From: Amycolatopsis thermoflava N1165
GTDB lineage: Bacteria; Actinomycetota; Actinomycetes; Mycobacteriales; Pseudonocardiaceae
Length of the DNA stretch: 64,000 nt
Assembly: GCF_000473265.1 (NCBI RefSeq)
Contig: NZ_KI421511.1
Location: 795,731-859,730 of the forward strand
Direction of reading: 5' to 3'
Position 1 is the first letter of the stretch; each line of letters starts with the position of its first letter. This document shows positions 11,127 to 34,208 of this stretch, in pieces. A program made the position numbers and the translations under genes. The notes beneath the pieces were generated by a model that was not told the origin of the DNA, did no database searches, and worked only from the letters and a program-made list of their open reading frames with translations.

Positions 11127-11132
11127 CGGACC

Positions 11133-11149: not shown

Positions 11150-11186
11150 TAGCGAATCCCGACGATCAAGAGACAAAGGACAGAGA

Positions 11187-11594
11187 ATGAGCGACAACGC
11201 GACACCGACGTTCGACACCAGCGAGTTCACCGCCGAGCTGACCGAAGCACCCACCAACTTCGCGGTCGGCAACACCGTGCTGTTCGAGAACGAGTCCGTT
11301 CGCGTCTGGGGTTCCACCATCGAGCCCGGGACGCGGGTTCCGTTCCACAACCACACCATCGACTATTTCTGGATCTGTGTTCGCGCCAGCTCCGCCTACC
11401 AGCGCTTCGAAGACGGAACGGCCCGCTACATCGAGCCCGCGCCGGGACAGGTGTCCTTCCAGCGCTATGGGCCCGGTGAGAACCTCATCCACGACCTCGA
11501 GAACGTCGGAGACGGTCCGCTGGAGATCATCACGGTAGAGCTTCTCGATACCGGCGCTCCCACCCACTCGCACAGCGCGCACCACCGCGGCTGA
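11187..11594 (+). CDS. Small single-domain cupin protein
   Basis: This 135-residue cupin barrel carries the first motif GTRVPFHNHTIDYFWI, whose histidines and acidic position can bind metal. The second motif region around PGQVSFQRYGPGENLIHDLEN supplies another histidine. The tail THSHSAHH is histidine-rich. An AAAGGA site precedes the ATG. Such proteins are often isomerases, hydrolases or dioxygenases for small organic acids, but the family does not fix the reaction. It lies between an SDR and a VOC protein in the operon, consistent with a catabolic role. Confidence 0.7.
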   Translation: MSDNATPTFDTSEFTAELTEAPTNFAVGNTVLFENESVRVWGSTIEPGTRVPFHNHTIDYFWICVRASSAYQRFEDGTARYIEPAPGQVSFQRYGPGENLIHDLENVGDGPLEIITVELLDTGAPTHSHSAHHRG

Positions 11595-11670
11595 GCGAAC
11601 GGCCGAAGCAGCACACCCTTTCACCCACGACCGACTGGGTGTCCACCTGGGACACGCAGGGGAGTTTCTC

Positions 11671-12225: not shown

Positions 12226-12263
12226 CGCCGCGTCCTACCGGCCGACTTTCGAAAGGACTCACC

Positions 12264-13840: not shown

Positions 13841-13902
13841 CCACGAACGGACCCGCTTCGCAGCACTCACCCATCACCCGACGCTGACGCCGGAGGTTCA
13901 TC

Positions 13903-19744: not shown

Positions 19745-20050
19745 TCCCAGAGATCAGAAGTCTGCGGGAATCGCGACAGCGGGTGACCGCGGTCGCGATC
19801 ACACCCAAACACACCCGGCCCCACCGTCCGCAGCCAAACGAACGCTTCAACCGCACCTTGCTCGAAGAGCCGGCCTACGCCCAGCCCTGCCACACCGACA
19901 CCGAACGACGACGCCGCGCCTTGCCTTGCCACACTGGCTGCACACCTGCAACCAGCACCGCGGACTCACTGCACTCGCAGGCCAGTCGCCCGCCATCCGC
20001 GTCCCCAACTCACAGGTCAGTCACGGCTGGTACTGCAACGGCAGTTGAGC
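19745..20050 (+). mobile_element. IS481-type transposase 3' remnant
   Basis: One frame carries ITPKHTRPHRPQPNERFNRT followed by LLEEPAYAQP, the third catalytic block of IS481-type transposases. After a frameshift another frame carries NQHRGLTALAGQSPAIRVPN and SQVS, the usual C-terminus. The upstream two thirds are missing. Its last codons run into the left end of the IS3 element at 20046, so this remnant sits directly against the younger insertion. Confidence 0.6.
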
Positions 20051-20112
20051 TTGTCCCCGTGGCTCGGACACCGGTCTTGAGGTGGCCTTGGGTCACCAGG
20101 AAGGATGTTGCG

Positions 20113-20403
20113 GTGCCTGCACCACACCCGCCTGAGTTTCGTCGTCGTGCCATCGGGTTGGCCCGTCAGGGCTCCAAACCGGTCTCTGAGCTGGCCAAAG
20201 AGTTGGGCATCAGCGAGTCATGCTTGCGCAACTGGATGGCCCAGGCCGAGACCGACGAGAACGGCTCAGCGAGCCGGTTGACGAGCGCGGAGAAGAAAGA
20301 ACTTGCCGAGCTGCAGAAGAAAACCCGCCAGCTTGAGATGGAGAATGAGATTCTCAAACGCGCGGCTGCCTACTTCGCACGGGAGAACATCCTCCCAAAG
20401 TAA
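20113..20403 (+). CDS. IS3-family transposase OrfA
   Basis: This 96-residue OrfA starts with GTG. An N-terminal helix-turn-helix (PPEFRRRAIGLARQG and ELAKELGISESCLRNWM) binds the inverted repeats. It is followed by a leucine-zipper coiled coil, KKELAELQKKTRQLEMENEI, used for dimerisation. The gene ends CTC CCA AAG TAA. A -1 slip on the CCCAAAG stretch would continue into the OrfB frame as PPKVIYPLVREL and make the OrfAB transposase. Confidence 0.88.
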   Translation: MPAPHPPEFRRRAIGLARQGSKPVSELAKELGISESCLRNWMAQAETDENGSASRLTSAEKKELAELQKKTRQLEMENEILKRAAAYFARENILPK

Positions 20404-20429
20404 TTTACCCGCTGGTCCGTGAACTCGCC

Positions 20430-21293
20430 GTGGACGGTATCGACGTCGCGGTGGCCTGTCGGGTATTGAAGGTGTCACGGTCGGGCTATTACGACTGGCG
20501 TGACCGGCCGCCCTCATCTCGAGAGCAGGACAACACGTTGCTGCTCAAGCGCATCGAGGCCATTCACGCCGAATCTCGCGGCACTTATGGTTGGCCGCGA
20601 GTGCATGCCGAACTTGTCCTCGGGATGGGCGTCGGCGTCAACCATAAACGGGTGGCCCGGCTCATGCGCGAGGCCGGCATCCAGGGTCTCTACCGACGTC
20701 GCCGCCGTGGCTGCACCGTCCGCAACCCCGCCGAGGAAACCGCCGAGGACCTGGTCAACCGCACGTTCACCAGCAAGGGCCCGAATCGGCTGTGGCTGAC
20801 TGACATCGCCGAACATCCCACGAAAGAAGGGAAATTGTACTGCGCTGCCGTTATGGACGCCTATTCACGACGCATCATCGGATGGTCCATCGACAACCAC
20901 ATGCGCACCGAGCTGGTGATCGACGCACTCGGCATGGCCATGCTCCGCCGCAAACCCGAACCTGGCAACACTATCCTCCATTCTGGCCGCGGATCCCAAT
21001 TCACCTCCTGGGCATTCGGGCAACGACTCCGCGCCACCGAACTCCTGCCCTCCAGGGGCAGCGTCGGCGATTGTTACGACAACTCCATGATGGAATCCTT
21101 CTGGGGCACACTCCAACTCGAAGTACTCGACACGCAAACGCGGGAAACACCCGACGAGCTTGCCGCCGCGATCTTCGAATGGATAGAATGCTGGTATAAT
21201 CTGCAACGGCGGCACTCCAGCCTGGGAATGCTCAGCCCTGTCCAGTTCGAAGCCCACACCCCCGAGCGACCGTCACCACAACACGATCGCTGA
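20430..21293 (+). CDS. IS3-family transposase OrfB (integrase domain), altered active site
   Basis: This 287-residue integrase part has the HTH_21 region ESRGTYGWPRVHAEL and an rve core. The first catalytic Asp is in RLWLTDIAEH and the last catalytic Glu in DNSMMESFWGTLQLE. The second catalytic block reads ILHSGRGSQFTSWAFGQRL, where the family has HSD. A glycine in place of that aspartate (codon GGC, one base from GAC) should abolish strand transfer. The rest, including the C-terminal ECWYNLQRRHSSLGMLSP, is intact, so loss of function looks recent. The open frame extends back to about 20394 for the fused product. Confidence 0.88.
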   Translation: MDGIDVAVACRVLKVSRSGYYDWRDRPPSSREQDNTLLLKRIEAIHAESRGTYGWPRVHAELVLGMGVGVNHKRVARLMREAGIQGLYRRRRRGCTVRNPAEETAEDLVNRTFTSKGPNRLWLTDIAEHPTKEGKLYCAAVMDAYSRRIIGWSIDNHMRTELVIDALGMAMLRRKPEPGNTILHSGRGSQFTSWAFGQRLRATELLPSRGSVGDCYDNSMMESFWGTLQLEVLDTQTRETPDELAAAIFEWIECWYNLQRRHSSLGMLSPVQFEAHTPERPSPQHDR

Positions 21294-21463: not shown

Positions 21464-22414
21464 TCAGGCAGAACGGCCGGAGCGGTAGGCACGTGGGCTC
21501 ACGCCGAAGCGTGACGTGAATTCCCGGCTGAAGAACGAGGCGTTCGTGAATCCGTAGTGGGACGCGATTTCGGTGATGTTCAGGTGCTGTGCCGCGGGGG
21601 AGTCCAGCGCACGGCGGCAGGCGTCCAGCCTCCGCTGTTTGATCCAGCAGGCCACGGTGAAACCGTGGCGGGCGAACAGCCGGTGCAGGGTCCTCGCTGA
21701 CATGAAGAACTCGCCGGCGATGCGCTGGGGAGTCAGCTCCGTGTCGGCGAGGTTCTCTTCGATGAAGACCTGGATCTTCTGCAGTTGATCATGCTCGGCG
21801 CTGTCGCACAGGGCTTCCCGGCCGGCTTCCCACGCCGTGGTGATGGTCAGTTCCGCCACCTCGGCCGCCAGCCGCACCCCTGTCAGGGGCGACAGCACCG
21901 CGTCGGATTTGGCCAGGGCGGCGAGCAGCGGTGACAAGAAGCTCCCGGCTCCCGCGGTCCCCGAGATCGCCCGGGCCGTGATGCGCTCGGAATCGGCATC
22001 GCTGAGGGTGACCGCGGAGAGTGGCCAGGTGTACACCCGGAGCGTCCAGTCCCCGGTCAGCGACCACGTGAACGGGCGGGAGGTGTCGTAGACTGCGAGG
22101 TCGCCCCCGGCGACGGTGCAGCGGCGGCCGTCCTGTTCGAGGTGCCCGACGCCGCGGTCGACGACACCGACCGCCAGCAGGTTGCGGTCGTCGGTGCCCG
22201 CGAGGCGCTTCGTCCGGCTGAAGGTCTGCGGGATCGAGCGGACCACCGACGCCTGGAGGTGGCCGACCTGGCGCGAACGAACCGAACCGGCGAGGTCCGA
22301 CGCGTCGTCCTGCGTGATGCGCAGAGGCACGAACCGGTGATGGATGACGTCCGTCCATGCGCGCAGCGACCGCGCCGTCTCCACGACGGCCTCCGGCTGT
22401 CCCGTGGGCGTCAT
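21464..22414 (-). CDS. AraC-family transcriptional regulator 1
   Basis: This 316-residue regulator runs from ATG 22414. The N-terminal ligand-binding domain has the AraC-binding-like barrel with LLAVGVVDRGVGHLEQDGR and TVAGGDLAVYDTSRPFTWSL. The C-terminal double helix-turn-helix has RIAGEFFMSARTLHRLFARH and ITEIASHYGFTNASFFSREF, ending in FGVSPRAYR. It diverges from the double-cupin gene at 22590 across 175 bp and probably controls it. A second regulator of the same architecture lies beyond that gene, so the pair may answer related ligands. Confidence 0.9.
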   Translation of the reverse strand: MTPTGQPEAVVETARSLRAWTDVIHHRFVPLRITQDDASDLAGSVRSRQVGHLQASVVRSIPQTFSRTKRLAGTDDRNLLAVGVVDRGVGHLEQDGRRCTVAGGDLAVYDTSRPFTWSLTGDWTLRVYTWPLSAVTLSDADSERITARAISGTAGAGSFLSPLLAALAKSDAVLSPLTGVRLAAEVAELTITTAWEAGREALCDSAEHDQLQKIQVFIEENLADTELTPQRIAGEFFMSARTLHRLFARHGFTVACWIKQRRLDACRRALDSPAAQHLNITEIASHYGFTNASFFSREFTSRFGVSPRAYRSGRSA

Positions 22415-22589
22415 GCCTGACCACGGTAGGCCAGAAGCGCTGCGGCCACCAGCACACACCCGGAAAGCGCCGATGCTCGGCCGAAGCTGTCACGCAGCGC
22501 AAAGGCGGCGACGCGGACAGGACATTCCCGCGGTGGAGACGGTCTTAGCGTCGGGAACCACCTTGAACGTGCTCAATGAGGAGGACGCA

Positions 22590-23429
22590 ATGACAACGCT
22601 GGATGCGCGGCAGATCCACGTCGGGAGCCGGAATCTCAACCCGTCCGAGGGATGGGTTCCCTTCGAGTGGGTCGAGCCGGTCCACGGTCCGCAGGTCAAG
22701 GGGGAGGTGCTGGTCATCCGTCCCGCGGGTACCTCTGGCGACCTCAAGGCCGGGCTCTGGCGCACCGGGCCTGGCATCGCCGGCTGTGCACAGGACGGTT
22801 CCTGCCACGTGAAGTACTCGGCGCCGGACGCGGACGAGACCGTCGTCATCCTGGAGGGCTCGGCTGAGCTGACCGTGACCTCCACCGGCAAGCGGTATCA
22901 CCTGGAGGCCGGGTCGATCATGAGCCACCCGAAGGGGCTCGACATCACCTGGGAGATCAGCTCCCCGTTCCTGAAGAAGTTCTGGGTACTGTGGGACAGC
23001 CCGCACCCGGGCACGTCCGGCACTGACCTGCACGTGTCGCACATCAGCGCCGACCCGGAGAACTGGACTCCGTACAAGTGGGTCGAGCCCGCGCACGGCC
23101 CGCAGGTGTGCGGGGAACTGTTCACGATCCGGGAGACCGGGGCGACCGGGACGTTGCTGTGCGGCTTGTGGCGCACGGGCGTGGGGATCGCCGGCTGCGA
23201 GGCCGACGGGTCGTCCACGGTTGCTTACACGGCTCCGCTCGGCGACGAGACGATGCTGCTGCTCGAAGGGCGCGCGCACCTGGTGAACGAGGAAACCGGC
23301 GAGGAGTACGACTTCGTCGCCGGCGACGTGATCTGCCTGCCCTCCGGACTCCCGGTCCGCTGGACCTCGCAGGCCCCGTTCGTGAAGAAGTTCTGGGTGA
23401 TCACCAACGAAGCACCACCGGCGGCCTGA
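22590..23429 (+). CDS. Tandem double-cupin protein (ureidoglycine-aminohydrolase-like fold)
   Basis: This 279-residue protein consists of two copies of one cupin domain. The repeats are plain: WVPFEWVEPVHGPQVKGE in the first half and WTPYKWVEPAHGPQVCGE in the second. Each is followed by GLWRTG.GIAGC, a DET(V/M) block with a glutamate (ILEGSAEL, LLEGRAHL) and PF(L/V)KKFWV at the end. The pattern matches the cupin_3 (DUF861) group that includes (S)-ureidoglycine aminohydrolase and EutQ-like proteins. Start has GAGGAGG. Function is unknown. The flanking AraC regulators and the strong terminator after it indicate a self-contained, inducible single-gene unit. Confidence 0.8.
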   Translation: MTTLDARQIHVGSRNLNPSEGWVPFEWVEPVHGPQVKGEVLVIRPAGTSGDLKAGLWRTGPGIAGCAQDGSCHVKYSAPDADETVVILEGSAELTVTSTGKRYHLEAGSIMSHPKGLDITWEISSPFLKKFWVLWDSPHPGTSGTDLHVSHISADPENWTPYKWVEPAHGPQVCGELFTIRETGATGTLLCGLWRTGVGIAGCEADGSSTVAYTAPLGDETMLLLEGRAHLVNEETGEEYDFVAGDVICLPSGLPVRWTSQAPFVKKFWVITNEAPPAA

Positions 23430-23657: not shown

Positions 23658-24614
23658 TCAGGACCGTGACTTGGCGCGGTAGGTGCTGGGAGACATTCCG
23701 TACGCCTCCCGAAATGCGCGGCTGAACACGGCGGGATGTGTGAAGCCCCAACGGAAGCAGATCTCCGCGAGGGTGGCGCCGCTCTCCCGGGGGTTGGCGA
23801 GGTCGCGCCGGCAGCGCTCTAGCCGTCGCCGCCGGATGACGTCGGAGACCCTGTGCCCGCGGTGGGCGAACAGGCGCTGGAGCTGCCGGGCCGACATGAA
23901 GTGCGCTTGCGCGACCGTGTCGGTTGACAGGTCCGGATCCGGCAGGTGCTCGTCCAGGTAGGTGTCGATCCGGCGGAGCAGATCCGCATGCCGGCCGTCC
24001 TCGGCGTCGGCGCCGCAAGCGTCGCCCGCGACGGTCGTCACGAGTCGGCCGATCTCGTCGGCGAGCCGGATCGCCCCGGACTCGCCCACGGACGGCCGTG
24101 TTCGGAGCAGGTCGGCGAGCATACGGCTCAGCACCCCGGTCATGCCCTGGTCACCGCGCAACGGCCGGCCGGTGAGGGACGCCGTGTCGCGCGCGTGAAG
24201 GTCGATCGTGTGGCGAGGCCAGGTGAACACGGCGAGGTCCCATTCCGGCGACCGGCGCCCGGACCGCAGGGACCAGCGGAACGGACGCTCGGTCTCGTAG
24301 ATCACGAAGTCGCCGGGCCGCAGCACCGCCTCGTGCCCGTCCTGGGCGACGAAGGCCTCGCCCCGCTGGACGAGCCCGACCTGGAAGTAGTGCCGGCGAT
24401 CGTGGCGCAGCAGCCGTGGGGTACGGCTGATGTCCTGGTTGACCGAGCGGACCGTGGAGACCTGAAGGTGGCCCAGGTGACTGCTGTGGACGGTGCCGCC
24501 GAACGCTGGAGAGTCCTCCTCGACAGCGATGTCGAGGTTGACGAACTGGTCCCGCAGCAGGTCGCACCAGTCGTCGTGCCGGCGGCTGACGATCTCGCCC
24601 GGCGCTGTCGCCAT
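23658..24614 (-). CDS. AraC-family transcriptional regulator 2
   Basis: This 318-residue regulator has the same layout as the one at 21464. The N-terminal barrel has HYFQVGLVQRGEAFVAQDGH and LRPGDFVIYETERPFRWSLR. The C-terminal DNA-binding domain has VAQAHFMSARQLQRLFAHRG and EICFRWGFTHPAVFSRAFRE, ending YGMSPSTYRA. The blocks GDxxVYxTxRPFxWSL and FMSARxLxRLFA shared with the first regulator indicate paralogy. Its promoter region faces the arsR gene at 24839, so it might act there or on the double cupin; the sequence does not decide. Confidence 0.9.
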   Translation of the reverse strand: MATAPGEIVSRRHDDWCDLLRDQFVNLDIAVEEDSPAFGGTVHSSHLGHLQVSTVRSVNQDISRTPRLLRHDRRHYFQVGLVQRGEAFVAQDGHEAVLRPGDFVIYETERPFRWSLRSGRRSPEWDLAVFTWPRHTIDLHARDTASLTGRPLRGDQGMTGVLSRMLADLLRTRPSVGESGAIRLADEIGRLVTTVAGDACGADAEDGRHADLLRRIDTYLDEHLPDPDLSTDTVAQAHFMSARQLQRLFAHRGHRVSDVIRRRRLERCRRDLANPRESGATLAEICFRWGFTHPAVFSRAFREAYGMSPSTYRAKSRS

Positions 24615-24800
24615 GGTCGCACCTCGCTCGGCTCCGGCAACCTGGGCGGCTGCCGCTCCGGGGGAGTGTCGGCGACGTTGTCGCCATCGGTCAAGAACCT
24701 GTCGCCTCGTGCTCGGTGTCGCCGCGGCGTCCCGGTCACCATGTACGGCATGTTCGCGGAGGCGCGGGTGCGGGGCCCGCCCGGTAGGTTACGCTGGATC

Positions 24801-24822
24801 GCGTCATCATCTACTGACATGT
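24801..24822 (+). promoter_or_regulatory. Putative ArsR operator upstream of its own gene
   Basis: GTCATCAT (24803-24810) followed by TGACATG (24815-24821) resembles the 9-bp inverted repeat ATCATGTCA...TGACATGAT at 26620-26645. TAGGTT (24785-24790) could be the -10 box just upstream, placing this site over the transcript start. It would give negative autoregulation. The left half is imperfect, so the call depends on the better site downstream. Confidence 0.45.
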
Positions 24823-24838
24823 TGAGAGGCGACGATCG

Positions 24839-25177
24839 GTGGCAACCGGGCCGGCCTTTGACGCGCTTGCGGACCCTGTGCGGCGGGAGATCCTGAGCGT
24901 GCTCGCCGAACGCGACGAGTGCAGCGTGAACGAGTTGGCCGAAAGCATCGGCAGCGTGGGCCGGACCGCCGTGTCCAACCATCTCCGGATCCTGCGCACC
25001 GCGGGGCTCGTGGTCGAGCGCCGCGCCGGGCGGTATCGCTACTACTCGATCGACCCCGCTGGTTCGGCCCGCGAAGTCATCGCGATGTTGCAGAAGCTGT
25101 TTCAGAGCGCGCTGGCCGACGCCGGGCGCGCCGCCAGCGCTGCGTCCGACCCTGACTCCGATTCTCGTTCAGCTTAG
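24839..25177 (+). CDS. ArsR-family repressor of the nitrile cluster
   Basis: This 112-residue winged-helix repressor starts with GTG after GAGAGG. The fold is seen in FDALADPVRREILSVLAERD and the recognition helix VGRTAVSNHLRILRTAGLV, with the wing RRAGRYRYYSID. There is no CxC metal site, so it probably senses an organic effector or a partner protein. The next gene encodes a sensor-like fusion. In Rhodococcus rhodochrous J1 the cobalt nitrile hydratase is controlled by a small regulator (NhlD) and an AmiC-like protein (NhlC), a similar pairing. This gene heads the cluster and likely represses it. Confidence 0.88.
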   Translation: MATGPAFDALADPVRREILSVLAERDECSVNELAESIGSVGRTAVSNHLRILRTAGLVVERRAGRYRYYSIDPAGSAREVIAMLQKLFQSALADAGRAASAASDPDSDSRSA

Positions 25178-25194
25178 ACACAGGGGAGGGCCCT

Positions 25195-26613
25195 GTGCCC
25201 GAACTCGCGCTCCGTGCGGAGCAGTGGGTCTCCAGCCCGCCCGAGGTCGTGTTCTCCCTGTTCGGCGCGAGTGCGGGCGCGGGATGGGTGTTCGACGCGC
25301 AGTGCGACCGGGTCGTGCCCGGTGAGCCGGTCAGCCTGTCGGCGCCGTTCGCGGGTGGCGATCCGGTAGAGGTCATCGGTCACATCCGGGCGGTCCGGCG
25401 GTGCGCGCTCATCGAGATCTCCCATGACCAGCCATGGCGCGGGCGGGTCAGGCTGCGGTTCGTTCCCGAGCGTGGCGGGACGCGGGTGCGCCTGGTGGCC
25501 GAGCTCGACGAGTCCGGGCTCGAATGGCTCATGCGACGCAACGGTCTGCCGACCGGCCATGGCGCCTCGGGCAATCCGCGCCTGGGCCTGCTGACCACCA
25601 AATCCGGCCCGGGAAGCCTGTTCGCGGCGGCCACGGACAACCTCGCGACGCTGGCGATCGACGAGATCAACGCCGAGGGAGGAGTGGGCGGGCGCCCGGT
25701 CGAACTGCTCGTCGGCGATGACGCGACCGATCCGGCCGTCGGGGTCGCCGAGGCCCGCCGCCTGGTGCGGGCCGGCTGCCGGACGATCCTGGTGGCGACC
25801 ATTTCCGCGACCTTCGTGGCCGTGTCCCGGGCACTGGCTTCCGAGGAGGTCCTGCTCGTCCAGACGCTGATGAACGAGGGCGGCGAGTCGGGGGCGCTGC
25901 GCCTGCAGTACGGCGAACGTCCGGGCGCCCAGCTGGTCGCGTCGGCGGCCACGCTGATGCGAGCCGCGGGCGGACGACGGTGGTTTCTGGCGGGAAACGA
26001 CTACTGCTGGCCCCGCAGCACGCACGCCGCCGCTCGCCGGATCCTGCCCCGGCTGGGAGCCGAACTGGTCGGGGAGCGCTTCGCGGCGTTGGGCACCCGT
26101 GACTTCTCCCCGGTGATCGAAGCGATCCAGGCCTCCCCGGCCGACATCGTGCTGTCCACTTTCGTGGGGGCCGATGCGGCGGCCTTTGAGCGGCAGGCGC
26201 ACGCGATGGGCCTGCGGGACCGGTGCCTCACCCTCGCGCCCGCGATGGACGAATCGACGCTGCGGCGGGTGGGACCCACCGCGTCGGCCGGGCTGTACGC
26301 GGTGTCCGGCTACTTCGAGCAACTCCCGACCGCAGGCAACGAGGAGCTGGTCGAACGGTACCGGGCGACGTACGGCCGATGGGCGCCTCCGCTGTCGACA
26401 CTGAGCGAGTCGGTGTTCGAAGCGGTCCGGATGTGGTGGCTGGTGGCGAGCCGGGTCGGCGCCGCGGAACCACGCCGGATCGCCGAGGAAATCCGGCGCA
26501 CCCGCTTCGAGCTTCCCCGGGGCGTCGTGACTCTTGACGGTGGCGAGCAGGCCACGCAGCGGCTGCACCTCGTCGAAGCGCACGAGACCGGGTTCAGGTT
26601 CACACGACTGTAA
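25195..26613 (+). CDS. SRPBCC-domain / AmiC-like binding-protein fusion, predicted inducer sensor
   Basis: This 472-residue protein has two parts. Residues 1 to about 118 look like an SRPBCC (START/AHSA1) ligand-binding domain: ALRAEQWVSSPPEVVFSLFG, then RFVPERGGTRVRLVAELDES. Residues about 122-472 are a type I periplasmic-binding fold of the branched-chain amino acid/amide group: RLGLLTTKSGPGSLFAAATD, INAEGGVGGRPVELLVGDDA, CRTILVATISATFVAVSRAL and LSTFVGADAAAFERQA. There is no signal peptide, so it stays in the cytoplasm like AmiC, which senses amides for amidase control. It is likely the effector sensor that relieves ArsR. A joined SRPBCC and binding-protein architecture is not one I know; the start could also be internal, but the SRPBCC segment is in frame and has good codons. 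Confidence 0.78.
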   Translation: MPELALRAEQWVSSPPEVVFSLFGASAGAGWVFDAQCDRVVPGEPVSLSAPFAGGDPVEVIGHIRAVRRCALIEISHDQPWRGRVRLRFVPERGGTRVRLVAELDESGLEWLMRRNGLPTGHGASGNPRLGLLTTKSGPGSLFAAATDNLATLAIDEINAEGGVGGRPVELLVGDDATDPAVGVAEARRLVRAGCRTILVATISATFVAVSRALASEEVLLVQTLMNEGGESGALRLQYGERPGAQLVASAATLMRAAGGRRWFLAGNDYCWPRSTHAAARRILPRLGAELVGERFAALGTRDFSPVIEAIQASPADIVLSTFVGADAAAFERQAHAMGLRDRCLTLAPAMDESTLRRVGPTASAGLYAVSGYFEQLPTAGNEELVERYRATYGRWAPPLSTLSESVFEAVRMWWLVASRVGAAEPRRIAEEIRRTRFELPRGVVTLDGGEQATQRLHLVEAHETGFRFTRL

Positions 26614-26619
26614 CAAGTC

Positions 26620-26664
26620 ATCATGTCAGCACTTATTGACATGATAGGTCGTCTCTCCTACTTT
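26620..26664 (+). promoter_or_regulatory. Promoter and operator of the cobalt/nitrile operon
   Basis: ATCATGTCA-N8-TGACATGAT (26620-26645) is a perfect 9-bp inverted repeat. Its right arm overlaps a consensus -35 box TTGACA (26636-26641). Exactly 17 bp later is TACTTT (26659-26664), a good -10 box. A dimeric repressor bound here would block RNA polymerase. The site is 54 bp before cbtB at 26719 and lies right after the sensor gene stop. A related site precedes arsR. Confidence 0.72.
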
Positions 26665-26718
26665 CATGCTTGTCCGCATGCCCGAAGACGGGTTCGAAGT
26701 CCCGCTGAGGAGGCCCTG

Positions 26719-26934
26719 ATGACTGCCCTTCCCGCACAGCCCGCCACGTCCACGCCGGTGGTGGCGCCGGTGGCCGCGTCCGCACTGTGGCTCGCCGGCA
26801 CGGTGTTCCTGGCTGTTGCCCTGTACTACTTCGTCGGCATCGACCAGGGAGCCGTGTCCGTGTTCGGCAGTGACAGCCACGTGCACGAGTTCGTGCACGA
26901 CGCCCGGCACCTGCTCGGGTTCCCCTGTCACTGA
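26719..26934 (+). CDS. cbtB: CbtB cobalt-transporter subunit
   Basis: This 71-residue protein has one transmembrane helix (ALWLAGTVFLAVALYYFVGI) and a histidine-rich end, SDSHVHEFVHDARHLLGFPC followed by His. This is the CbtB signature, with metal ligands on the tail. Together with CbtA it forms a cobalt uptake system usually found next to B12 genes or riboswitches. Here it sits in a nitrile hydratase cluster, so it should feed cobalt to that enzyme. The ATG at 26719 has GAGGAGG. Rhodococcus clusters instead use the NhlF permease. Confidence 0.88.
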   Translation: MTALPAQPATSTPVVAPVAASALWLAGTVFLAVALYYFVGIDQGAVSVFGSDSHVHEFVHDARHLLGFPCH

Positions 26935-26947
26935 GGGCGGGGCAGAC

Positions 26948-27772
26948 ATGAACAAGACCTTAGTACTGCGCGGAATGGCCGCGGGCGGCATCGCCGGTCT
27001 GCTGGCGTTCGTGTTCGCACGGATCTTCGCCGAGCCGCGCATCGAGGCCGCGATCGACTACGAGACCGGGCGGGAGGCCGCTCAGTCGGTTGTGGACAGC
27101 GGCATGCACGTCCACGACCCGGTGCACGCGGCACATGAGGCGGGCGCCGAAGTGTTCACGCGCACCGTCCAGGCCGGCGTCGGCTCGGCCGTGGCCCTGA
27201 TCGTGTTCGGCATCGCGCTGGGAACGGTGTTCGCCGCCGTTTTCACCGTCGCGTTCGGCCGGATGGGTGGGTTGCGTGCTCGTTCGCTCGCCCTGGTCCT
27301 CGCCGGAGCGGGTCTGCTGGTGGTGTACCTCGTGCCGTTCCTGAAGTACCCGGCGAACCCGCCCGCCGTCGGGGCGTCGGACACCATCGGCACCCGGACC
27401 TCGTTCTACCTCGTCGCGGTTCTGGCGTCCGCCGCGGTCCTGGGCGGTGCCGTGTGGCTGGGCCGCGCGCTCCGGTCACGGCTGGGCACCTGGAACGCGG
27501 GCCTTGCGGCCACAGCGGCCTTCGTCCTGGGGGCGGGCGTGGTGCTCGCGGTGCTGCCCGGCTTCGACGAGACGCCTGGCCCACTGCTCGCCCCGGACGG
27601 TGCGATGGTCTACCCGGGGTTCCCCGCCGATGTGCTCGCGGAGTTCCGTCTGTACTCGGTGCTCACCCAGGTCGTGCTGTGGGCGGCCATCGGACTGGTG
27701 TTCGGGCCTCTGGCAGAGCGGGTGCTCCGGAACGGCGATCGTCCAGCGGCCCGCGTGACGGTGGGGCTGTGA
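26948..27772 (+). CDS. cbtA: CbtA-family cobalt transporter
   Basis: This 274-residue membrane protein has about seven predicted helices. An N-terminal GMAAGGIAGLLAFVFARIFA is followed by a periplasmic-type loop with metal-binding histidines (SGMHVHDPVHAAHEAG). The middle contains VYLVPFLKYPANPPAVG and the end VVLWAAIGLVFGPLAERVL, all characteristic of CbtA. It starts 13 bp after cbtB. It is proposed to move Co(II) inward; the identity of the ion is inferred from the family and from the cobalt-type nitrile hydratase downstream. Confidence 0.88.
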   Translation: MNKTLVLRGMAAGGIAGLLAFVFARIFAEPRIEAAIDYETGREAAQSVVDSGMHVHDPVHAAHEAGAEVFTRTVQAGVGSAVALIVFGIALGTVFAAVFTVAFGRMGGLRARSLALVLAGAGLLVVYLVPFLKYPANPPAVGASDTIGTRTSFYLVAVLASAAVLGGAVWLGRALRSRLGTWNAGLAATAAFVLGAGVVLAVLPGFDETPGPLLAPDGAMVYPGFPADVLAEFRLYSVLTQVVLWAAIGLVFGPLAERVLRNGDRPAARVTVGL

Positions 27773-27773
27773 C

Positions 27774-28490
27774 GTGTCCGTCCCCGAGCCGACCGCGGCG
27801 CTCGGGCCGCACTTCGCCGTCGACACCCACCCGGCCGCCGCGGTCGCTGACCGGCCGTGGCAGCCGCTGGGCGACCTGCTCGGGCGCCCGGGCGTCCTCC
27901 GGGGCTGGGTGCGCGAGATCCGGGGCCTGCTGGCCGTCGCGGCCGGTGTGCCCGAGGGCCGGGTCGACCCCAGGGCGGCCGCGTCACTCGCTCATCTCGG
28001 TCTGGTCGCCCGGCTCGTCGCGCCCGCGCTCGCGGAAGCAGCACACACCGGCCGGTTGCTCGACTTGAGCCTGGCCACGACGTGGTGGCAACCCGTGCCG
28101 GGCAGGCCGCTGCCGTTGTCCGTCATGGCCGAGACCGTGCTGTACCCGTCCCGCCGCGCCTCCGGTCATCTGCTCGCCGAACTGGTGGTGGAGGGCCCGG
28201 TGCGCAAGCTCACGACCGCCGTGGCCGAGCTGAACGTCTCACCCCGAGTGCTGTGGGGCAACGTCGCTTCGGCCGTGCACGGCGCGGCCCAGGTCCTCAC
28301 GACCGCCCTGCCGCACCGCGAGCCGGTCGTGCGGGAGCTGTCCACCACGCTGCTGAGATCCGGCGCCCTGGCCGCGACCGGATCCGTTGCGGCGGGCCGC
28401 TTCCGGCGGCGCAGCTGCTGCTTGCTCTACCGCGCCGTGCCCCGGCAGCCGGGGCCGGTGTGCGCCGACTGCGTCCACGGCACCTCCTGA
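27774..28490 (+). CDS. FhuF-like [2Fe-2S] protein of the nitrile operon
   Basis: This 238-residue protein starts with GTG two bases after the cbtA stop. The body is mostly helical, with no membrane segment. The C-terminus FRRRSCCLLYRAVPRQPGPV followed by CADC matches the FhuF-type C-terminal iron-sulfur motif CC-x(n)-C-x-x-C. FhuF reduces ferric iron from siderophores. In a cobalt/nitrile operon such a protein could supply electrons during metal loading, for example to keep cobalt or active-site thiols in the correct state, but this is conjecture. I know of no fixed nitrile hydratase maturation factor of this kind. Confidence 0.65.
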   Translation: MSVPEPTAALGPHFAVDTHPAAAVADRPWQPLGDLLGRPGVLRGWVREIRGLLAVAAGVPEGRVDPRAAASLAHLGLVARLVAPALAEAAHTGRLLDLSLATTWWQPVPGRPLPLSVMAETVLYPSRRASGHLLAELVVEGPVRKLTTAVAELNVSPRVLWGNVASAVHGAAQVLTTALPHREPVVRELSTTLLRSGALAATGSVAAGRFRRRSCCLLYRAVPRQPGPVCADCVHGTS

Positions 28491-28521
28491 CACCGCACGT
28501 CATCCGATCCGAGGAGTTCAC

Positions 28522-30069
28522 ATGTCCTCCCTGCCCGCACCCGATCCCGCGCGGATCTCCGAGCTCGACCGCCATTACGGTTTCGGGCTCTCACGCGCGG
28601 AGATCGAGGAGTTCACCCCGGCTGTTGCCGCCACTTTGGACTCCCCGCGCGTCGTCGAGCGGCTCTACGAGGCAAGTGCCCCGGCCGCCCCGGACCGCGC
28701 GTGGGCGCCGCCGCCGGACAACCCTTACGGGGCCTGGTACGTGACCACCTCGATCACCGAGTCCGAGAGCGGGCCGTTGGCCGGCCGCACTGTCGCCGTG
28801 AAGGACAACGTGTCCGTCGCGGGTGTGCCGGTGATGAACGGCTCACGCACGGTCGAGGGTTTCGTGCCGCGGCGGGATGCGACCGTGGTGCGCCGGCTGC
28901 TCGACGCGGGCGCCACGATCACCGGGAAGGCGGTCTGTGAAGACCTGTGCTTCTCCGGCGCCAGCTTCACGTCGCAACCCGGCCCGGTGCGCAACCCGTG
29001 GGACACCTCCCGCAACGCCGGCGGGTCCTCCAGCGGGAGCGGTGCCCTCGTCGCCGCCGGGGCGGCCGATCTGGCTGTCGGCGGCGACCAGGGCGGGTCG
29101 ATCCGCATTCCCGCGGCGTTTTGCGGGATCGTCGGCCACAAGCCGACCCACGGCCTGGTGCCCTACACCGGCGGGTTCCCCATCGAGCGCACGATCGACC
29201 ACCTCGGACCGATGGCCCGCACCGTCGCGGACACCGCGGCGATGCTGACCGTGCTCGCAGGGGTGGACGGGCTGGACGCCCGCCAGCCCAGCACCCTCGA
29301 ACACGTCGACTACCTGGCCGCGCTGGCCATCCCGGCGACCGGGCTCCGGATCGGTGTGGTGTCCGAAGGGTTCGGCACCGCCGTGTCCGACCCGGCGATC
29401 GACGAATCCGTGCTCGCCGCGGTCGACGGGCTGCGTTCGGCGGGCCTGGCCGCCGAGCGGGTGTCGATCCCGTGGCATACCAACGCCATGCACGTGTGGA
29501 ACGTGATCGCCACCGAGGGCGCCGCCTACCAGATGATCGACGGGAACGCGTTCGGCATGAACGTCGAGGACTTCTACGACCCCGAGCTCATCACCCACTT
29601 CGCACGACAGCGCGGGAGCCACGCCGCCCAACTGTCCAGCACTGTCAAGCTGGTCGGGCTGTCCGGCCGGTACACGTTCGAAGTGGGCGGTGGCAAGTAC
29701 TACGCGATGGCCCGGCACCTCGCCCGCGAACTCCGCGACGCCTACGACGCGGCGCTGAGCCGGCACGACGTGCTGATCATGCCCACGCTTCCCTACACCG
29801 CGAAGGAGATCCCGCCGGCTGACGTCTCCCTGGGGGAGTACCTGCACACCGCGCTGTCGATGGTCGGCAACTGCGCGCCCTTCGACGTCACCGGGCACCC
29901 CGCGTGCTCGGTGCCCGCCGGCCTCGTCGCCGGGCTGCCCGCAGGGCTGATGATCATCGGCCGGCGCTTCGACGACGCCACCGTCCTGCGCGTGGCGCAC
30001 ACCCATGAACAGGTGACCGGCGGCTTTCCCGCGCCGCCGGTCACCGCGACCTCGAGGAGCAACGCATGA
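28522..30069 (+). CDS. Amidase (amidase-signature family)
   Basis: This 515-residue amidase hydrolyses amides to carboxylic acid and ammonia in the cytoplasm. The Ser-cisSer-Lys triad is visible: Lys94 in RTVAVKDNVSVAG, Ser169 in NAGGSSSGSGALVA, and nucleophile Ser193 in GGDQGGSIRIPAAFCG. It resembles the nitrile-hydratase-linked amidases of Rhodococcus in length and in its N-terminal helical extension. ATG has GAGGAG. The stop overlaps the nitrile hydratase beta start by 4 nt, so enzyme levels are coupled. It performs the last step of the aldoxime-nitrile-amide-acid route. Confidence 0.93.
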   Translation: MSSLPAPDPARISELDRHYGFGLSRAEIEEFTPAVAATLDSPRVVERLYEASAPAAPDRAWAPPPDNPYGAWYVTTSITESESGPLAGRTVAVKDNVSVAGVPVMNGSRTVEGFVPRRDATVVRRLLDAGATITGKAVCEDLCFSGASFTSQPGPVRNPWDTSRNAGGSSSGSGALVAAGAADLAVGGDQGGSIRIPAAFCGIVGHKPTHGLVPYTGGFPIERTIDHLGPMARTVADTAAMLTVLAGVDGLDARQPSTLEHVDYLAALAIPATGLRIGVVSEGFGTAVSDPAIDESVLAAVDGLRSAGLAAERVSIPWHTNAMHVWNVIATEGAAYQMIDGNAFGMNVEDFYDPELITHFARQRGSHAAQLSSTVKLVGLSGRYTFEVGGGKYYAMARHLARELRDAYDAALSRHDVLIMPTLPYTAKEIPPADVSLGEYLHTALSMVGNCAPFDVTGHPACSVPAGLVAGLPAGLMIIGRRFDDATVLRVAHTHEQVTGGFPAPPVTATSRSNA

Positions 30070-30764
30070 ACGGAGTCTTCGACCTGGGCGGGACCGACGG
30101 TCTCGGGCCCGTCGTCACCCAGGAGGACGAGCCCGTGTTCCGGGCCGAATGGGAGAAGGCGGCGTTCGCCCTCTTCGCCACCTGCTTCCGGGCGGGACTG
30201 TTCAACGTGGACATGTTCCGGCACGGCATCGAGCAGATGGATCCCGCCGAGTACCTGCTGTCCAACTACTACGAGCACTGGGTCCACACCGCCGAGCACT
30301 TCGGCGCGAAGGCCGGCGTGATCGACCTCGCCGAGCTCGATGAGCGAACCCGGTTCTACCTGGAGAACCCGGACGCGCCACTGCCCGGCCGCACGGACCC
30401 GGAGCTGCTCGCCTTCGTCGACGCCGCGGTCATGGGCGGTGCGCCCGCCGCCCGGGAGTCCGACAAGGCGGCGGCGTTCCAGGTTGGCGACATCGTCACG
30501 GTGAACGCCGACAGCCCGGCCGGGCACACCCGCCGGGCCCGCTACGTCCGCGGCCGCACCGGCGAGATCACCGGTGCGCACGGCACCTTCATCTACCCCG
30601 ACAGCGCCGGAAACAGCGGCCCGGACGCCCCCGAGCACGTCTACACCGTGCGGTTCACCGCCACCGAACTGTGGGGGAGCGACACCGCCGACCCCCATGG
30701 CGTCGTCTACTTCGACGTCTGGGAGCCCTACCTCACCCTCTCCGAAAACCGAGGAGCAGCCTGA
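30066..30764 (+). CDS. nthB: Nitrile hydratase beta subunit
   Basis: This 232-residue beta subunit begins [16 protein letters not shown], the usual N-terminus. The helical part has [20 protein letters not shown] and the C-terminal SH3-like barrel has [30 protein letters not shown] and [10 protein letters not shown]. The beta subunit shapes the substrate pocket and contributes arginines that bond to the alpha-subunit oxidised cysteines. The order beta before alpha is that of cobalt-type operons. It starts on the last bases of the amidase gene and ends two bases before alpha. Confidence 0.95.
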
Positions 30765-30765
30765 C

Positions 30766-31377
30766 ATGGCACCGACCGACACCCGCCTGCGCAGCCAGGA
30801 GGAGATCACCGCCCGCGTGAAGGCGCTGGAAGCCCTGCTCATCGAGAAGGGCATCATGACGACCGAGGCCGTCGACCGTCTCGCCGACATCTACGAGAAC
30901 GAAGTCGGCCCCCAGCTCGGCGCCAAGGTCGTCGCGAAGGCCTGGACCGATCCCGCCTTCAAGTCACGGTTGCTCGACAACGCCACGGCCGCCTGTGCCG
31001 AACTCGGCATCGGCGGGCTGCAGGGCGAGGACATGGTGGTCGTCGAGAACACCGGCGAGGTGCACAACGTCATCGTCTGCACCCTGTGCTCGTGCTACCC
31101 GTGGCCGGTCCTCGGGCTGCCGCCGAACTGGTACAAGGCGCCCGCCTACCGCGCCCGCATCGTCCGCGAGCCACGCAAGGTGCTCGCCGAGGACTTCGGC
31201 TTCCCGGTCCCCGGCGACGTCGAGATCAGGGTCTGGGACTCCAGTTCCGAGCTGCGCTACTGGGTGCTGCCCACCCGGCCCGCCGGCACCGAAGGGCTGA
31301 GCGTGGAACAGCTCGAAGCGCTCGTCACCCGTGACTCGATGATCGGCGTCGGTCCCGCCGCCGCCCCGGCCGCATGA
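30766..31377 (+). CDS. nthA: Nitrile hydratase alpha subunit, cobalt type
   Basis: This 203-residue alpha subunit carries the metal site [10 protein letters not shown]. Cys105, Cys108 and Cys110 bind the metal, and two of them become sulfinic and sulfenic acids. Threonine after the first cysteine marks the non-corrin cobalt class, while iron enzymes have serine. Other family blocks are [19 protein letters not shown] and [19 protein letters not shown]. The enzyme hydrates nitriles to amides. Its stop overlaps the accessory gene by 4 nt, as expected because the chaperone must meet the new subunit. Confidence 0.95.
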
Positions 31378-31784
31378 GCGCCCGGGCACGGCCGGACGCC
31401 ACCGAACTCGGTGACGCCCGCCGCCGCGTGGAGGCCCTCGTCTGCGACTTGCCCGGCTCCGGGGAGAAGGGCTTCGACCAGCCGTGGGAGCTGCGGGCCT
31501 TCGCCCTCGCCGTCGCGGCCTACCACAACGGGCACTACGAGTGGAGCGAGTTCCAGCTCTCGCTCATCGAGGCGATCCGGGAGTGGGAACGCGGCGGCGG
31601 GGACGAGCCGTGGAGGTACTACGAGCACTGGCTGACGGCCCTGGAGGCGGTTCTGTCGGGCAAGGGACTGCTGTCGGAGGCGGTGCTCGACGAACAGACC
31701 CGGACCATGCTGGCCACCCCGCGCAACGCCAATCACCACCAGGCCCACCGCGACCCGGTCGCGATCTCGCCCCGGACCGCCTGA
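31374..31784 (+). CDS. Nitrile hydratase accessory (subunit-swapping) protein
   Basis: This 136-residue protein resembles the N-terminal helical part of a beta subunit: [20 protein letters not shown] and [20 protein letters not shown]. Cobalt-type systems use such proteins (NhlE and relatives) to carry an alpha subunit, load cobalt and exchange it into the apoenzyme, the process called self-subunit swapping. It is coupled to alpha by a 4-nt overlap. Gene order beta-alpha-accessory agrees with known cobalt nitrile hydratases. Confidence 0.9.
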
Positions 31785-31861
31785 ACAACCCGGTGGTGCC
31801 GCCCGCCCGGACGGTGCGGCACCACCGGTCCTCTGCCCCTCTCAAGCCCAGGAGACAACAC

Positions 31862-32920
31862 ATGGAATCCGCAGTCGACAAGCACCTGCAGTGCCCGCGC
31901 ACCCGGTCGCGCCGGGTCGCCGACGACTACCGGCCCCCGTTCCCGATGTTCGTCGCTCGCGCCGCCGAGGACCTCACCCACGTCGTCATGGGTTACTTCG
32001 GTGTCCAGTACCAGGGACCTGAACACCGCGCCGAGGCCCTCGCCGCGCTGCGGGAGATCGTCGGGCACTTCGGACTCGATGACGGCCCCGGGGAGTACGA
32101 CACGACGCACCACCAGGACCGTGAAGGCGCCGACAATCTGATCGCGGTCGGCTACTGGCGCGACGCCGGCCGCTACCAGCGCTGGCTCTCCCGCCCGGAG
32201 GTGGCAGGCTGGTGGAACTCCGCCGACCGCGAACGCGCCGGCGTCGGGTTCTTCCGCGAGATCGTTTCACCGCGAGCCGACCAGTTCGAGACGCTCTACG
32301 CGTTCACCGACGGTTTCCCCGGCGTGGGCGCCATCATGGACGGCGTCAGCGGGGAGATCGAAGAGCACGGCTACTGGGGCTCGATGCGGGACCGGTTGCC
32401 CATATCGCAGACCGACTGGCTCCCCGCGCGGGGCCAGACCGTGGCCGTGACCGACGCCGCGACGCCTGGCCGGGTGATCGTGCGCGGCCACGACAACATC
32501 GCACTCATCCGGTCCGGCCAGGACTGGGCCGACGCCGGCGACGACGAGCGTTCGCTCTACCTCGACGAGATCGAGCCCGTGCTGCGGGCCGGCATGGACT
32601 TCGTACGCGACCACGGCCAGGACGTCGGCTGCTACAGCAACCGGTACGTGCGCTACATCGATCTCGACGGCAACCCGATTGACAAGTCGTACAACATCGG
32701 GCACTGGCGCTCACTCGACCTCCTGGAACGCTGGTCCGAGTCCCACCCGACGCACCTGCGGATCTTCACCACGTTCTTCCGCGTGGTCGAGCAACTGGAC
32801 AAACTGCGCCTGTACCACGAGGTCTCCGTCTTCGACGCGAAAGACCAGTACTACGAATACATCAACTGTCACCCGGCGACCGGCATGCTGCGGGACGCGG
32901 CGGTGCCGTCGGTCGCCTGA
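31862..32920 (+). CDS. oxd: Heme-dependent aldoxime dehydratase
   Basis: This 352-residue enzyme dehydrates aldoximes (R-CH=N-OH) to nitriles using ferrous heme b that binds substrate nitrogen directly. The C-terminal blocks SESHPTHLRIFTTFFRVVEQ and RLYHEVSVFDAKDQYYEYIN are diagnostic. His298 should be the heme ligand and His319 the distal catalytic residue, one residue off the numbering of the Rhodococcus enzyme (299 and 320). The N-terminal part has RPPFPMFVARAAEDLTHVVM. It is last in the cluster, 77 bp after the accessory gene, and makes the substrate for nitrile hydratase. A hairpin terminator follows. Confidence 0.94.
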   Translation: MESAVDKHLQCPRTRSRRVADDYRPPFPMFVARAAEDLTHVVMGYFGVQYQGPEHRAEALAALREIVGHFGLDDGPGEYDTTHHQDREGADNLIAVGYWRDAGRYQRWLSRPEVAGWWNSADRERAGVGFFREIVSPRADQFETLYAFTDGFPGVGAIMDGVSGEIEEHGYWGSMRDRLPISQTDWLPARGQTVAVTDAATPGRVIVRGHDNIALIRSGQDWADAGDDERSLYLDEIEPVLRAGMDFVRDHGQDVGCYSNRYVRYIDLDGNPIDKSYNIGHWRSLDLLERWSESHPTHLRIFTTFFRVVEQLDKLRLYHEVSVFDAKDQYYEYINCHPATGMLRDAAVPSVA

Positions 32921-33194: not shown

Positions 33195-34208
33195 ATGACA
33201 CCCCCACTGCCGTTGATCGACATCTCGCGTTTCCGTGACCCCGCAGCCGATCGGGAGGAGTTCCTGGCGCAGCTCCGGCACGCCGCGCACGAGGTGGGTT
33301 TCTTCTACGTCGTCGGGCACGGGGTCCCCGGCGAGCTGAGCGCCGGGATCTTCGACGTGGCGCGGAAGTTCTTCGCACTGCCCGAGCAGCAGCGGCTGGA
33401 GATCGGCAACATCCACTCCCCGCAGTTCCGCGGGTACACCGCCACCGGCCACGAGTACACCGCGGGCGCGCCGGACTGGCGGGAGCAGATCGACATCGGC
33501 CCGGAGCGGGAAGCGCTCGAACTCGCGCCCGGCGACCCGGCCTGGAAGCGGTTGATCGGTCCGAACCTGTGGCCAGCGGCGTTGCCGGAGCTGCGCGAGA
33601 CGACGCTGGCGTGGCAGGCCGAGGCGCTGCGCGTGAGCCGCGAAGTGCTGCGGGCGCTGGCGGCCTCGCTCGGCCAGGACGAGGGCTATTTCGACGAGTG
33701 GTTCGACGCCGAAGCCGCCACCCACGTCAAGATCATCCGCTACCCCGGCCGCGTTCGCGACGACGCCGACCAGGGGGTGGGCGCCCACAAGGACTACGGC
33801 TACCTCGCGCTGTTGCAGCAGGACGAGGTCGGCGGGCTGCAGGTGCAGGCGGCGGACGGCAGCTGGATCGACGCCACCCCGATCCCGGGCAGCTTCGTGT
33901 TCAACATCGGCGAGATGCTGGAGATCGCGACCCAGGGCTACCTGACCGCGACGCGGCACCGCGTGGTCAGCCCGCCCCCGGGCGTGGAACGGTTCTCGGT
34001 GCCGTTCTTCCTCGGGCCACGCCTGGACGCGGTCGTCGAGCCGCTGACCTTGCCCGCCGAGCTGGCCAAGCAGGCCCGCGGCGTCAGCGAGGACGCCGAC
34101 AACCCGCTGCTGGCCGCCTACGGCGAGAACGCGCTCGTGGGCTGGCTGCGGTCGCACCCCGAGGTCGCCCGGCGCTGGTGGTCCGACGTGCTGGCGGAGC
34201 AGGCGTGA
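33195..34208 (+). CDS. Isopenicillin-N-synthase-like Fe(II) oxygenase
   Basis: This 337-residue member of the 2-oxoglutarate/Fe(II) and IPNS superfamily has the N-terminal DIOX domain (LIDISRFRDPAADREEFLAQ, GFFYVVGHGVP). The catalytic barrel has the iron triad His198 and Asp200 in VGAHKDYGYLALLQQ and His255 in TATRHRVVSPPPG, plus Arg266-x-Ser268 for 2-oxoglutarate carboxylate. Such enzymes hydroxylate or cleave C-H and C-S adjacent carbons. It is first in an operon with a MetY-like enzyme and flavin monooxygenases, so oxidative release of sulfur from an organosulfur compound is possible, but unproven. Its stop overlaps the next gene by 4 nt. Confidence 0.88.
   Translation: MTPPLPLIDISRFRDPAADREEFLAQLRHAAHEVGFFYVVGHGVPGELSAGIFDVARKFFALPEQQRLEIGNIHSPQFRGYTATGHEYTAGAPDWREQIDIGPEREALELAPGDPAWKRLIGPNLWPAALPELRETTLAWQAEALRVSREVLRALAASLGQDEGYFDEWFDAEAATHVKIIRYPGRVRDDADQGVGAHKDYGYLALLQQDEVGGLQVQAADGSWIDATPIPGSFVFNIGEMLEIATQGYLTATRHRVVSPPPGVERFSVPFFLGPRLDAVVEPLTLPAELAKQARGVSEDADNPLLAAYGENALVGWLRSHPEVARRWWSDVLAEQA

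Follow-up and report, generated by a model that had tools for sequence, protein, structure and literature searches.

A cobalt nitrile hydratase cluster of Amycolatopsis thermoflava N1165 with CbtB, CbtA and FhuF-like genes behind the putative operator of an ArsR/sensor pair

Introduction

The window analysed here is a stretch of 64,000 nucleotides from Amycolatopsis thermoflava N1165 (contig NZ_KI421511.1, positions 795,731 to 859,730 of the forward strand). Between 24839 and 32920 it carries ten genes that we read, with good but not complete confidence, as a cobalt nitrile hydratase (NHase)/amidase cluster with an ArsR/AmiC-like regulatory pair, which appears to have captured a CbtB-CbtA-FhuF set under its own repressor and which has an aldoxime dehydratase gene (oxd, product OxdA) lying beyond a hairpin. 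What looks new is the capture of the CbtBA importer by an NHase cluster, not the fused sensor of the regulatory pair. CbtAB is known mainly from the context of vitamin B12; if such an importer has passed from B12 feedback to an amide-type control, it would illustrate how a cell feeds a non-corrin cobalt enzyme of industrial use. The FhuF-like gene is, furthermore, a candidate for a third component of CbtAB, for which direct evidence of transport is scant.

Results

Family searches with Pfam and NCBIfam place all ten genes named in an initial annotation of this DNA on the plus strand:

24839-25177, +: ArsR-family repressor, 112 aa (Pfam/NCBIfam HTH_5 and HTH_20 above cut-off)
25195-26613, +: sensor, 472 aa, SRPBCC-like domain (about 1-120) and AmiC/UrtA-like binding domain (129-464)
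26719-26934, +: CbtB, predicted cobalt transporter subunit (Pfam 39.8 vs 27 bits)
26948-27772, +: CbtA, predicted cobalt transporter subunit (Pfam 253.1 vs 30.7 bits)
27774-28490, +: FhuF-like protein, 238 aa, CC-x13-C-x2-C (family-level evidence)
28522-30069, +: amidase, NF005565 subfamily (above cut-off)
30066-30764, +: NHase beta subunit (NHase beta/alpha models TIGR03888 and TIGR01323 above cut-off)
30766-31377, +: NHase alpha subunit, cobalt motif CTLCSCY (same models, above cut-off)
31374-31784, +: NHase activator, homologue of the beta N-terminus (NHase_beta_N above cut-off)
31862-32920, +: aldoxime dehydratase, OxdA type (NF050090 equivalog, 649.4 vs 600 bits)

The NHase alpha subunit carries the cobalt-type motif CTLCSCY and its top solved-structure matches are cobalt NHases. 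The order beta-alpha-activator, with a beta-like activator, is the one that the abstract of PMC3511329 gives for cobalt NHase genes. Cobalt in the active site and enzyme activity are predicted from these features. The closest solved enzymes to OxdA are 3a15 and 3w08, and its match to Pfam Dehydratase_hem marks it as a haem enzyme. As the initial annotation had proposed, aldoxime dehydratase, NHase and amidase are all encoded, so that a serial route from aldoxime through nitrile and amide to acid has an enzyme for every step; the substrates themselves are presumed. The host genome (8.69 Mb, two contigs) was found to hold a single NHase alpha gene and a single oxd gene, both in this cluster, and no CbtA other than that of the cluster.

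CbtA and CbtB are adjacent and both exceed their Pfam cut-offs, which bears out the earlier proposal of a cobalt importer other than NhlF within the cluster. Cobalt transport by this pair is mostly a prediction: a passage of PMC2667541 lists CbtAB as predicted cobalt transporter candidates, and in one of PMC13108547 the silencing of cbtB in Methylococcus has the same effect as lower cobalt in the medium, which favours cobalt import. Of 397 genomes from the order Mycobacteriales, 103 gave a match to NHase alpha; apart from the window itself, we read 40 of the 41 best-matching places, all but G321:C5. CbtA or CbtB stands beside NHase in nine of these 40 loci (L038, L039, L042, L051, L053, L066, L068, L070 and L071), eight with CbtA and L068 with CbtB only. 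The replacement of NhlF by CbtAB, put forward as new, is therefore not a one-off, and its novelty stands to the extent that, among the matches listed from the open-access literature, we found neither an NHase cluster with CbtAB nor a pairing of FhuF and CbtAB described. CbtA and nitrile hydratase are both named in PMC2667541, PMC7142416 and PMC3596284, the last of which has cbtAB and the NHase genes far apart; PMC4531530 counts CbtA and FhuF in Frankia and, in the passages available, draws no link between them.

A NiCoT motif was present in five of the 40 loci (L032, L036, L045, L050 and L054), none of which has Cbt genes as well; the test was one strict motif, and the remaining loci may hold other NiCoT genes. 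Other clusters have NiCoT (Rhodococcus rhodochrous BAA-870), CbiMNQO near the NHase (Rhodococcus sp. M8) or CbiM (a Rhizobium plasmid). This variety makes the importer an exchangeable part of NHase clusters. The plasmid that carries the M8 NHase (L092, 3191-13950) was typed as conjugative; the CbiMNQO-type genes are close to this NHase, and an ArsR gene lies 3' of the activator.

The FhuF-like protein itself falls below the Pfam FhuF_C cut-off (17.1 vs 20.5 bits). FhuF_C is nevertheless matched by 20 of 20 aligned members of its family, window included (E <= 0.01), and the FhuF model PF06276 by four; the family profile reaches the solved FhuF 7qp5 at E 4.7e-6, and four Cys are invariant in all 20 aligned sequences, window included. 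We assign the protein to FhuF because of these family-level matches, although the single protein is under the cut-off; the original call thus stands for the family and falls short for the individual protein. A search of the 397 genomes with the window protein gave matches in 88. The best 41 places after the window's own comprise 40 new loci (L096-L135) and L051, which alone among them has the FhuF-like gene with both CbtBA and NHase.

CbtBA lies 48-287 nt from the FhuF-like gene in 24 of the 40 new loci, and no NHase or Oxd was detected in these 24 stretches. The arrangement is CbtB-CbtA-FhuF in 11, FhuF-CbtB-CbtA in 10 and convergent in three, with a riboswitch before CbtB in nine, nine and two of them, respectively. 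An association of FhuF with CbtBA as a phylum-wide rule was rejected, because even within the order it is confined to a part of the loci. Two further loci bear on the FhuF-like gene. In L151 (4720-5534, minus strand) a cobalamin riboswitch lies directly upstream of it and the stretch has no CbtBA, hinting at a cobalt role of the gene on its own. In L060 (8519-9145, minus strand) a divergent FhuF-like gene follows an NHase activator and a hairpin, and is followed by a partial second NHase alpha gene.

The upstream regions of CbtB separate the two settings of the importer. A cobalamin riboswitch (RF00174 or RF01482) precedes CbtB in 20 of the 24 FhuF-linked CbtBA loci; those without it are L098, L101, L110 (where the contig ends inside CbtA) and L123. 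In contrast, no riboswitch was found in any of ten NHase-linked CbtBA loci (window, L038, L039, L042, L051, L053, L066, L070, L071 and L072), nor in L068, with CbtB alone. The window has no cobalamin riboswitch at the gathering score, and a hidden one before cbtB was rejected, with no match up to E 5 in 26300-27000. From the upstream sequence, amide-type control thus seems to have been imposed here on an importer that is usually linked to B12. The host genome encodes three NicO-family transporters and no CbiM was found in it. One NicO match, at 7016685-7017548, starts about 180 nt after a cobalamin riboswitch at 7016333-7016502; judged by position, the host seems to feed B12 through riboswitch-controlled NicO and NHase through CbtBA.

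Trees of both proteins bear on the number of captures. In the CbtA tree (35 rows) the NHase-linked label requires four changes, at least two of them forced by well-supported branches, and the window CbtA is closest to the likewise NHase-linked CbtA of Amycolatopsis sp. GM8, to which it is 64% identical and with which it groups at 96/99. The FhuF tree (57 rows) places the window in a clade of 15, of which 12 including the window are CbtBA-linked (support 98/97), and L051 in a different clade of 12, of which 11 are CbtBA-linked (99/95); L060 sits on a long, unsure branch. We think it likelier that cobalt-NHase clusters took up riboswitch-type CbtBA(-FhuF) more than once than that they did so a single time. 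Both trees are rooted at the midpoint simply for display, and the direction of capture is presumed.

Two operator-like sites and a predicted promoter accompany the cluster:

26620-26645, +: main operator-like site before cbtB, perfect palindrome ATCATGTCA-N8-TGACATGAT
24798-24823, +: weaker operator-like copy before arsR, three mismatches to the palindrome
26636-26664, +: predicted cbtB promoter, TTGACA, 17 nt, TACTTT, with the -35 box inside the operator-like site

Shuffled window sequences never yielded the palindrome. It occurs once exactly in the 8.69 Mb of the host, where three sites lie within three mismatches and a reversed-pattern control gave none. The third copy (three mismatches; C1:1517728-1517753) is outside the window and far from the cluster. 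We scored 22 relatives against the window's own motif, leaving out the window, L046 (a duplicate of L082), L080 (rearranged), L088 (broken), L091 (44% identical, with other downstream genes) and loci whose sensor has no N-terminal part. The motif exceeds each locus's own shuffles (p <= 0.05) before the first structural gene in 19 of the 22, failing in L050, L074 and L076, and before arsR in 13; BAA-870 is among the relatives with the motif. Promoter-like boxes (TTGA[CT]N, 16-19 nt, TAnnnT) are found in 22 of 23 loci including the window, with about 0.08 expected from shuffles and none in L032; in 16 of the 23 the best-scoring site has the -35 box within its right arm. Scored by itself at fixed distance, the left arm is among the top 5% of positions in 15 of 22 loci, the window being one of the 22. 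Such an arrangement is in keeping with repression by promoter blocking, with ArsR as the protein presumed to bind the site, and the shared operator-like sites support the earlier suggestion that the ArsR/sensor pair belongs to the cluster.

Residues 129-464 of the sensor match Peripla_BP_6 above cut-off. In a full-length structure model (predicted local distance difference test score, pLDDT, 86.4) the C-terminal part matches the urea/amide receptors UrtA and AmiC, and a profile search agrees. The N-terminal part has no Pfam match; a model of residues 1-127 (pLDDT 88.5) loosely resembles SRPBCC/AHSA1/PR-10 structures (Foldseek E ~1e-4, template modelling score ~0.5-0.6, root mean square deviation at least 5). 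On these models the SRPBCC/binding-protein call of the initial annotation holds, with a loose SRPBCC match. The same full-length fusion adjoins ArsR upstream of a cobalt NHase in R. rhodochrous BAA-870 pNit (62.6% identity over residues 3-465) and stands beside ArsR in Pseudonocardia. When one genome per species was scanned, 18 named loci came up, among them loci of Pseudonocardia, Amycolatopsis and Streptomyces. In 16 of these ArsR is the gene directly 5' of the fusion; the exceptions are L080 (ArsR 3.6 kb off) and L088 (sensor in two pieces, no ArsR shown). The fused sensor, once held to be new, is from these comparisons ordinary for this type of NHase system.

An ArsR beside an AmiC-like protein upstream of a cobalt NHase is also the arrangement of NhlC/NhlD, the control proteins of Rhodococcus cobalt NHase systems in which NhlF supplies cobalt, and the pair is probably the NhlC/NhlD pair known from strain J1. 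In Streptomyces L073 and L075 the pair and the operator motif precede an amidase, and no NHase was found in the 8 kb beyond it. Taken with the AmiC fold, these loci suggest that the sensor ligand is probably an amide, and amide induction through the pair is proposed.

Two other loci vary the arrangement. In L091 of Rhodococcus pyridinivorans (7595-12820) a 44% identical sensor and an ArsR precede an annotated iron-type ABC transporter operon; the pair may hence control other gene sets. L074 of Pseudonocardia asaccharolytica (5966-14801) has two divergent amidase-NHase-activator sets around a single ArsR-sensor pair.

The gaps from cbtB to the activator gene are 13, 1, 31, -4, 1 and -4 nt, and co-transcription of these genes is predicted. 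A gap of 77 nt follows before oxd. Two features concern this end of the cluster and its regulation:

31790-31828, +: strong terminator-like hairpin without a T run, between the activator gene and oxd
23658-24614, -: AraC-type regulator (HTH_18 and AraC_binding_2), divergent from arsR

The stretch 31785-31862 folds at -39.3 kcal/mol (z -4.0); a generic terminator scan could not register the hairpin, which has no T run. Folds with z <= -2.0 (100 single-base shuffles each) follow the activator gene in 13 of 20 relatives and are missing from L039, L051, L072, L076, L078, L080 and L090, and thus from GM8 and BAA-870. Hence oxd lies beyond a likely, not universal, operon end, and may be served by lower-level read-through or by a control of its own. 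The claim of a self-sufficient island in one transcript was overstated, given this hairpin and the three host NicO-family transporters.

The AraC-type gene at 23658-24614, which like the two operator-like sites is absent from the initial annotation, is a candidate for the control of oxd. Its relatives stand beside oxd in L077, L152, L154, L157 and L158 and were not detected beside it in L153, L155 and L156; L076 has a relative, with no oxd detected. In the Oxd search of the order 19 genomes passed the cut-off, of which 18 matched strongly, and eight neighbourhoods of about 16-20 kb (window and L152-L158) were read. NHase occurs in two of the eight, the window (cobalt type) and L152 (iron-type motif CSLCSCT), so that Oxd next to NHase as a common feature of the order was rejected. 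In G243 (L153) an NHase lies about 14 kb from Oxd.

The neighbourhood holds further genes. Upstream of the cluster lie two adjoining IS3-like genes (transposase HTH and integrase-core domains; 19783-21293) and a second AraC-type regulator (21464-22459, minus strand), 38% identical to the 23658-24614 regulator over the aligned part, whose listed start is overlapped by a cupin-domain open reading frame on the opposite strand (22344-23429). A 2OG-Fe(II) dioxygenase-like gene (DIOX_N and 2OG-FeII_Oxy; 33195-34208, plus strand) is immediately 3' of oxd.

Discussion

Collectively our data are consistent with a model where, with no inducer present, ArsR would sit on the palindrome overlying the -35 box upstream of cbtB, and also on the weaker copy before arsR. 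Binding of a ligand, probably an amide, by the AmiC-like half of the sensor would let the sensor relieve ArsR, and relief would permit transcription from cbtB through the activator gene. CbtBA would then import cobalt whatever the B12 status, the FhuF-like protein would take part in a redox step of cobalt (or iron) acquisition, and the activator would load cobalt into NHase. OxdA, NHase and amidase would convert aldoxime to nitrile, amide and acid. The genes and their families, the operator-like sites, the missing riboswitch, the linkage of CbtBA to FhuF and the hairpin can be read from the sequence; repression, relief, ligand, co-transcription, cobalt transport, FhuF activity, substrates and the direction of capture are all inferred in this model. 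The defined operator-like site makes this NHase control testable with purified parts.

A number of observations weigh against the model. CbtA and CbtB fall below the NCBIfam cut-offs TIGR02458 and TIGR02459 (32.7 vs 182.9 and 19.4 vs 64.4 bits), and in a passage of PMC2773004 overexpression of CbtAB in Methylobacterium brought no growth gain. The riboswitch contrast of 0/10 against 20/24 loci has a Fisher p of 7.6e-6, which overstates it because the sequences share ancestry and the presence of FhuF was the criterion for choosing the second group, and several riboswitch matches are barely above the gathering score (32.0-32.9 vs 31.5). A generic promoter scan found no promoter before cbtB; as the right arm of the site includes the -35 box, the conservation of that arm may partly be the promoter's, and the hairpin before oxd argues against a single full-length transcript. 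The remaining points concern the FhuF-like gene. The riboswitch of the FhuF-first loci (10 of the 24), where present (nine of the 10), lies between FhuF and CbtB, so that FhuF would not be under its control. No CbtBA accompanies the FhuF-like gene in 16 of the 40 loci, likewise in L150 and L151 of the order, and none was found near the divergent gene of L060; outside the order (11 loci) CbtA is nearby in none of ten and 3.9 kb away in the eleventh (L149).

For the FhuF-like protein we consider a redox step in cobalt (or iron) acquisition most likely, its activity being predicted from family membership. A more specific proposal, which we put forward tentatively and do not expect to be right as a whole, is that CbtB, CbtA and FhuF together form a cobalt acquisition system of three parts, whose FhuF-like Fe-S protein reduces Co(III), for example from siderophore-like chelates, to Co(II); cobalt-NHase clusters would have captured it separately, on each occasion with no B12 riboswitch attached, which would free the supply of non-corrin cobalt from B12 feedback. 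Alternatively the protein might serve iron, freeing it from ferric siderophores for the OxdA haem or for general use, and its adjacency to CbtBA would have no cobalt meaning. Its kinship to the ferric-siderophore reductase FhuF, the haem of OxdA, the loci inside and outside the order with no CbtA close by, and the FhuF-first loci, where the gene is upstream of the riboswitch place and beyond its reach, are all in keeping with this. It is less easily squared with the 24 relatives lying so close to CbtBA in stretches with no detected Oxd or NHase, with L051 and L060, two cobalt-NHase clusters that include FhuF and in whose stretches no Oxd was detected, or with the cobalamin riboswitch directly before FhuF in L151. 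We regard an iron role of this kind as unlikely, at perhaps one chance in a few.

Induction by cobalt through ArsR itself, acting as CblA does in Rhodococcus, would make the fused sensor an accessory and leave amides without a part. NCBIfam does put the protein in the metalloregulator ArsR/SmtB subfamily (NF033788), and a passage of PMC7689651 describes CblA as an ArsR-SmtB protein that de-represses a cobalt NHase in R. rhodochrous. The window ArsR, however, has one Cys and one His in its 112 residues and thus no pair of Cys/His ligands as in the CblA-like proteins, and genes of its kind adjoin the fusion in nearly all named loci, also where amidase alone follows (L073 and L075). Known ArsR/SmtB metal sites use paired Cys or His ligands. 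A single Cys and a single His make relief through the sensor likelier than metal sensing; we disfavour ArsR as the metal sensor and hold cobalt induction to be improbable. That CbtBA-FhuF is a chance neighbour which arrived with flanking DNA, as the IS3-like transposase genes about 3.5-5 kb upstream of arsR might suggest for a region open to insertions, is most improbable given gene gaps of 1-31 nt around it, cbtB as the first gene behind the shared operator-like site, and the recurrence of CbtBA beside cobalt NHase in nine of 40 loci of the order (eight with CbtA, one with CbtB only) and, at the same place, in Amycolatopsis sp. GM8.

Relation to described clusters

We return to the reading of an NHase/amidase cluster with a captured importer. 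The closest described counterpart is BAA-870 pNit (L090), which has ArsR, the full-length SRPBCC/AmiC-like fusion, operator-like palindromes, NHase beta-alpha-activator, an amidase and a cobalt transporter. It differs in that NiCoT follows the activator, whereas the window has CbtBA-FhuF before the amidase, and in that its amidase is last, with no Oxd in the stretch and no hairpin of note after the activator. Most NHase clusters of Pseudonocardia and Amycolatopsis sp. GM8 (L072, L074, L076-L085 and L087) run ArsR-sensor-amidase-NHase beta-alpha-activator. GM8 has CbtB-CbtA in the same place as the window and no FhuF was found in it; P. kujensis (L077) likewise has AraC and Oxd, in its case both downstream. 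No CbtBA and no NiCoT motif were found in the Pseudonocardia loci, and none of the group has the window's whole gene set.

P47K-type activators go with iron-type NHase. In Pseudomonas chlororaphis B23 and R. erythropolis N-771 the aldoxime-nitrile pathway clusters have Oxd and NHase together, as in the window, and P47K-type activators according to the legend of Fig. 4 in PMC8955678, in contrast to the cobalt-type NHase, beta-like activator and importer found here. In Rhizobium sp. NIBRBAC000502774 pMK-2 (L094), too, a single cluster has a cobalt transporter alongside Oxd, amidase and cobalt-type NHase, with another arrangement of regulators; its transporter is of the CbiM type, and its candidacy as CbtA was rejected. 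Finally, the window encodes the same CbtA and CbtB families as the predicted transporters in the passage of PMC2667541, and differs from them in having no cobalamin riboswitch, in lying within an NHase cluster and in carrying a FhuF-like third gene.

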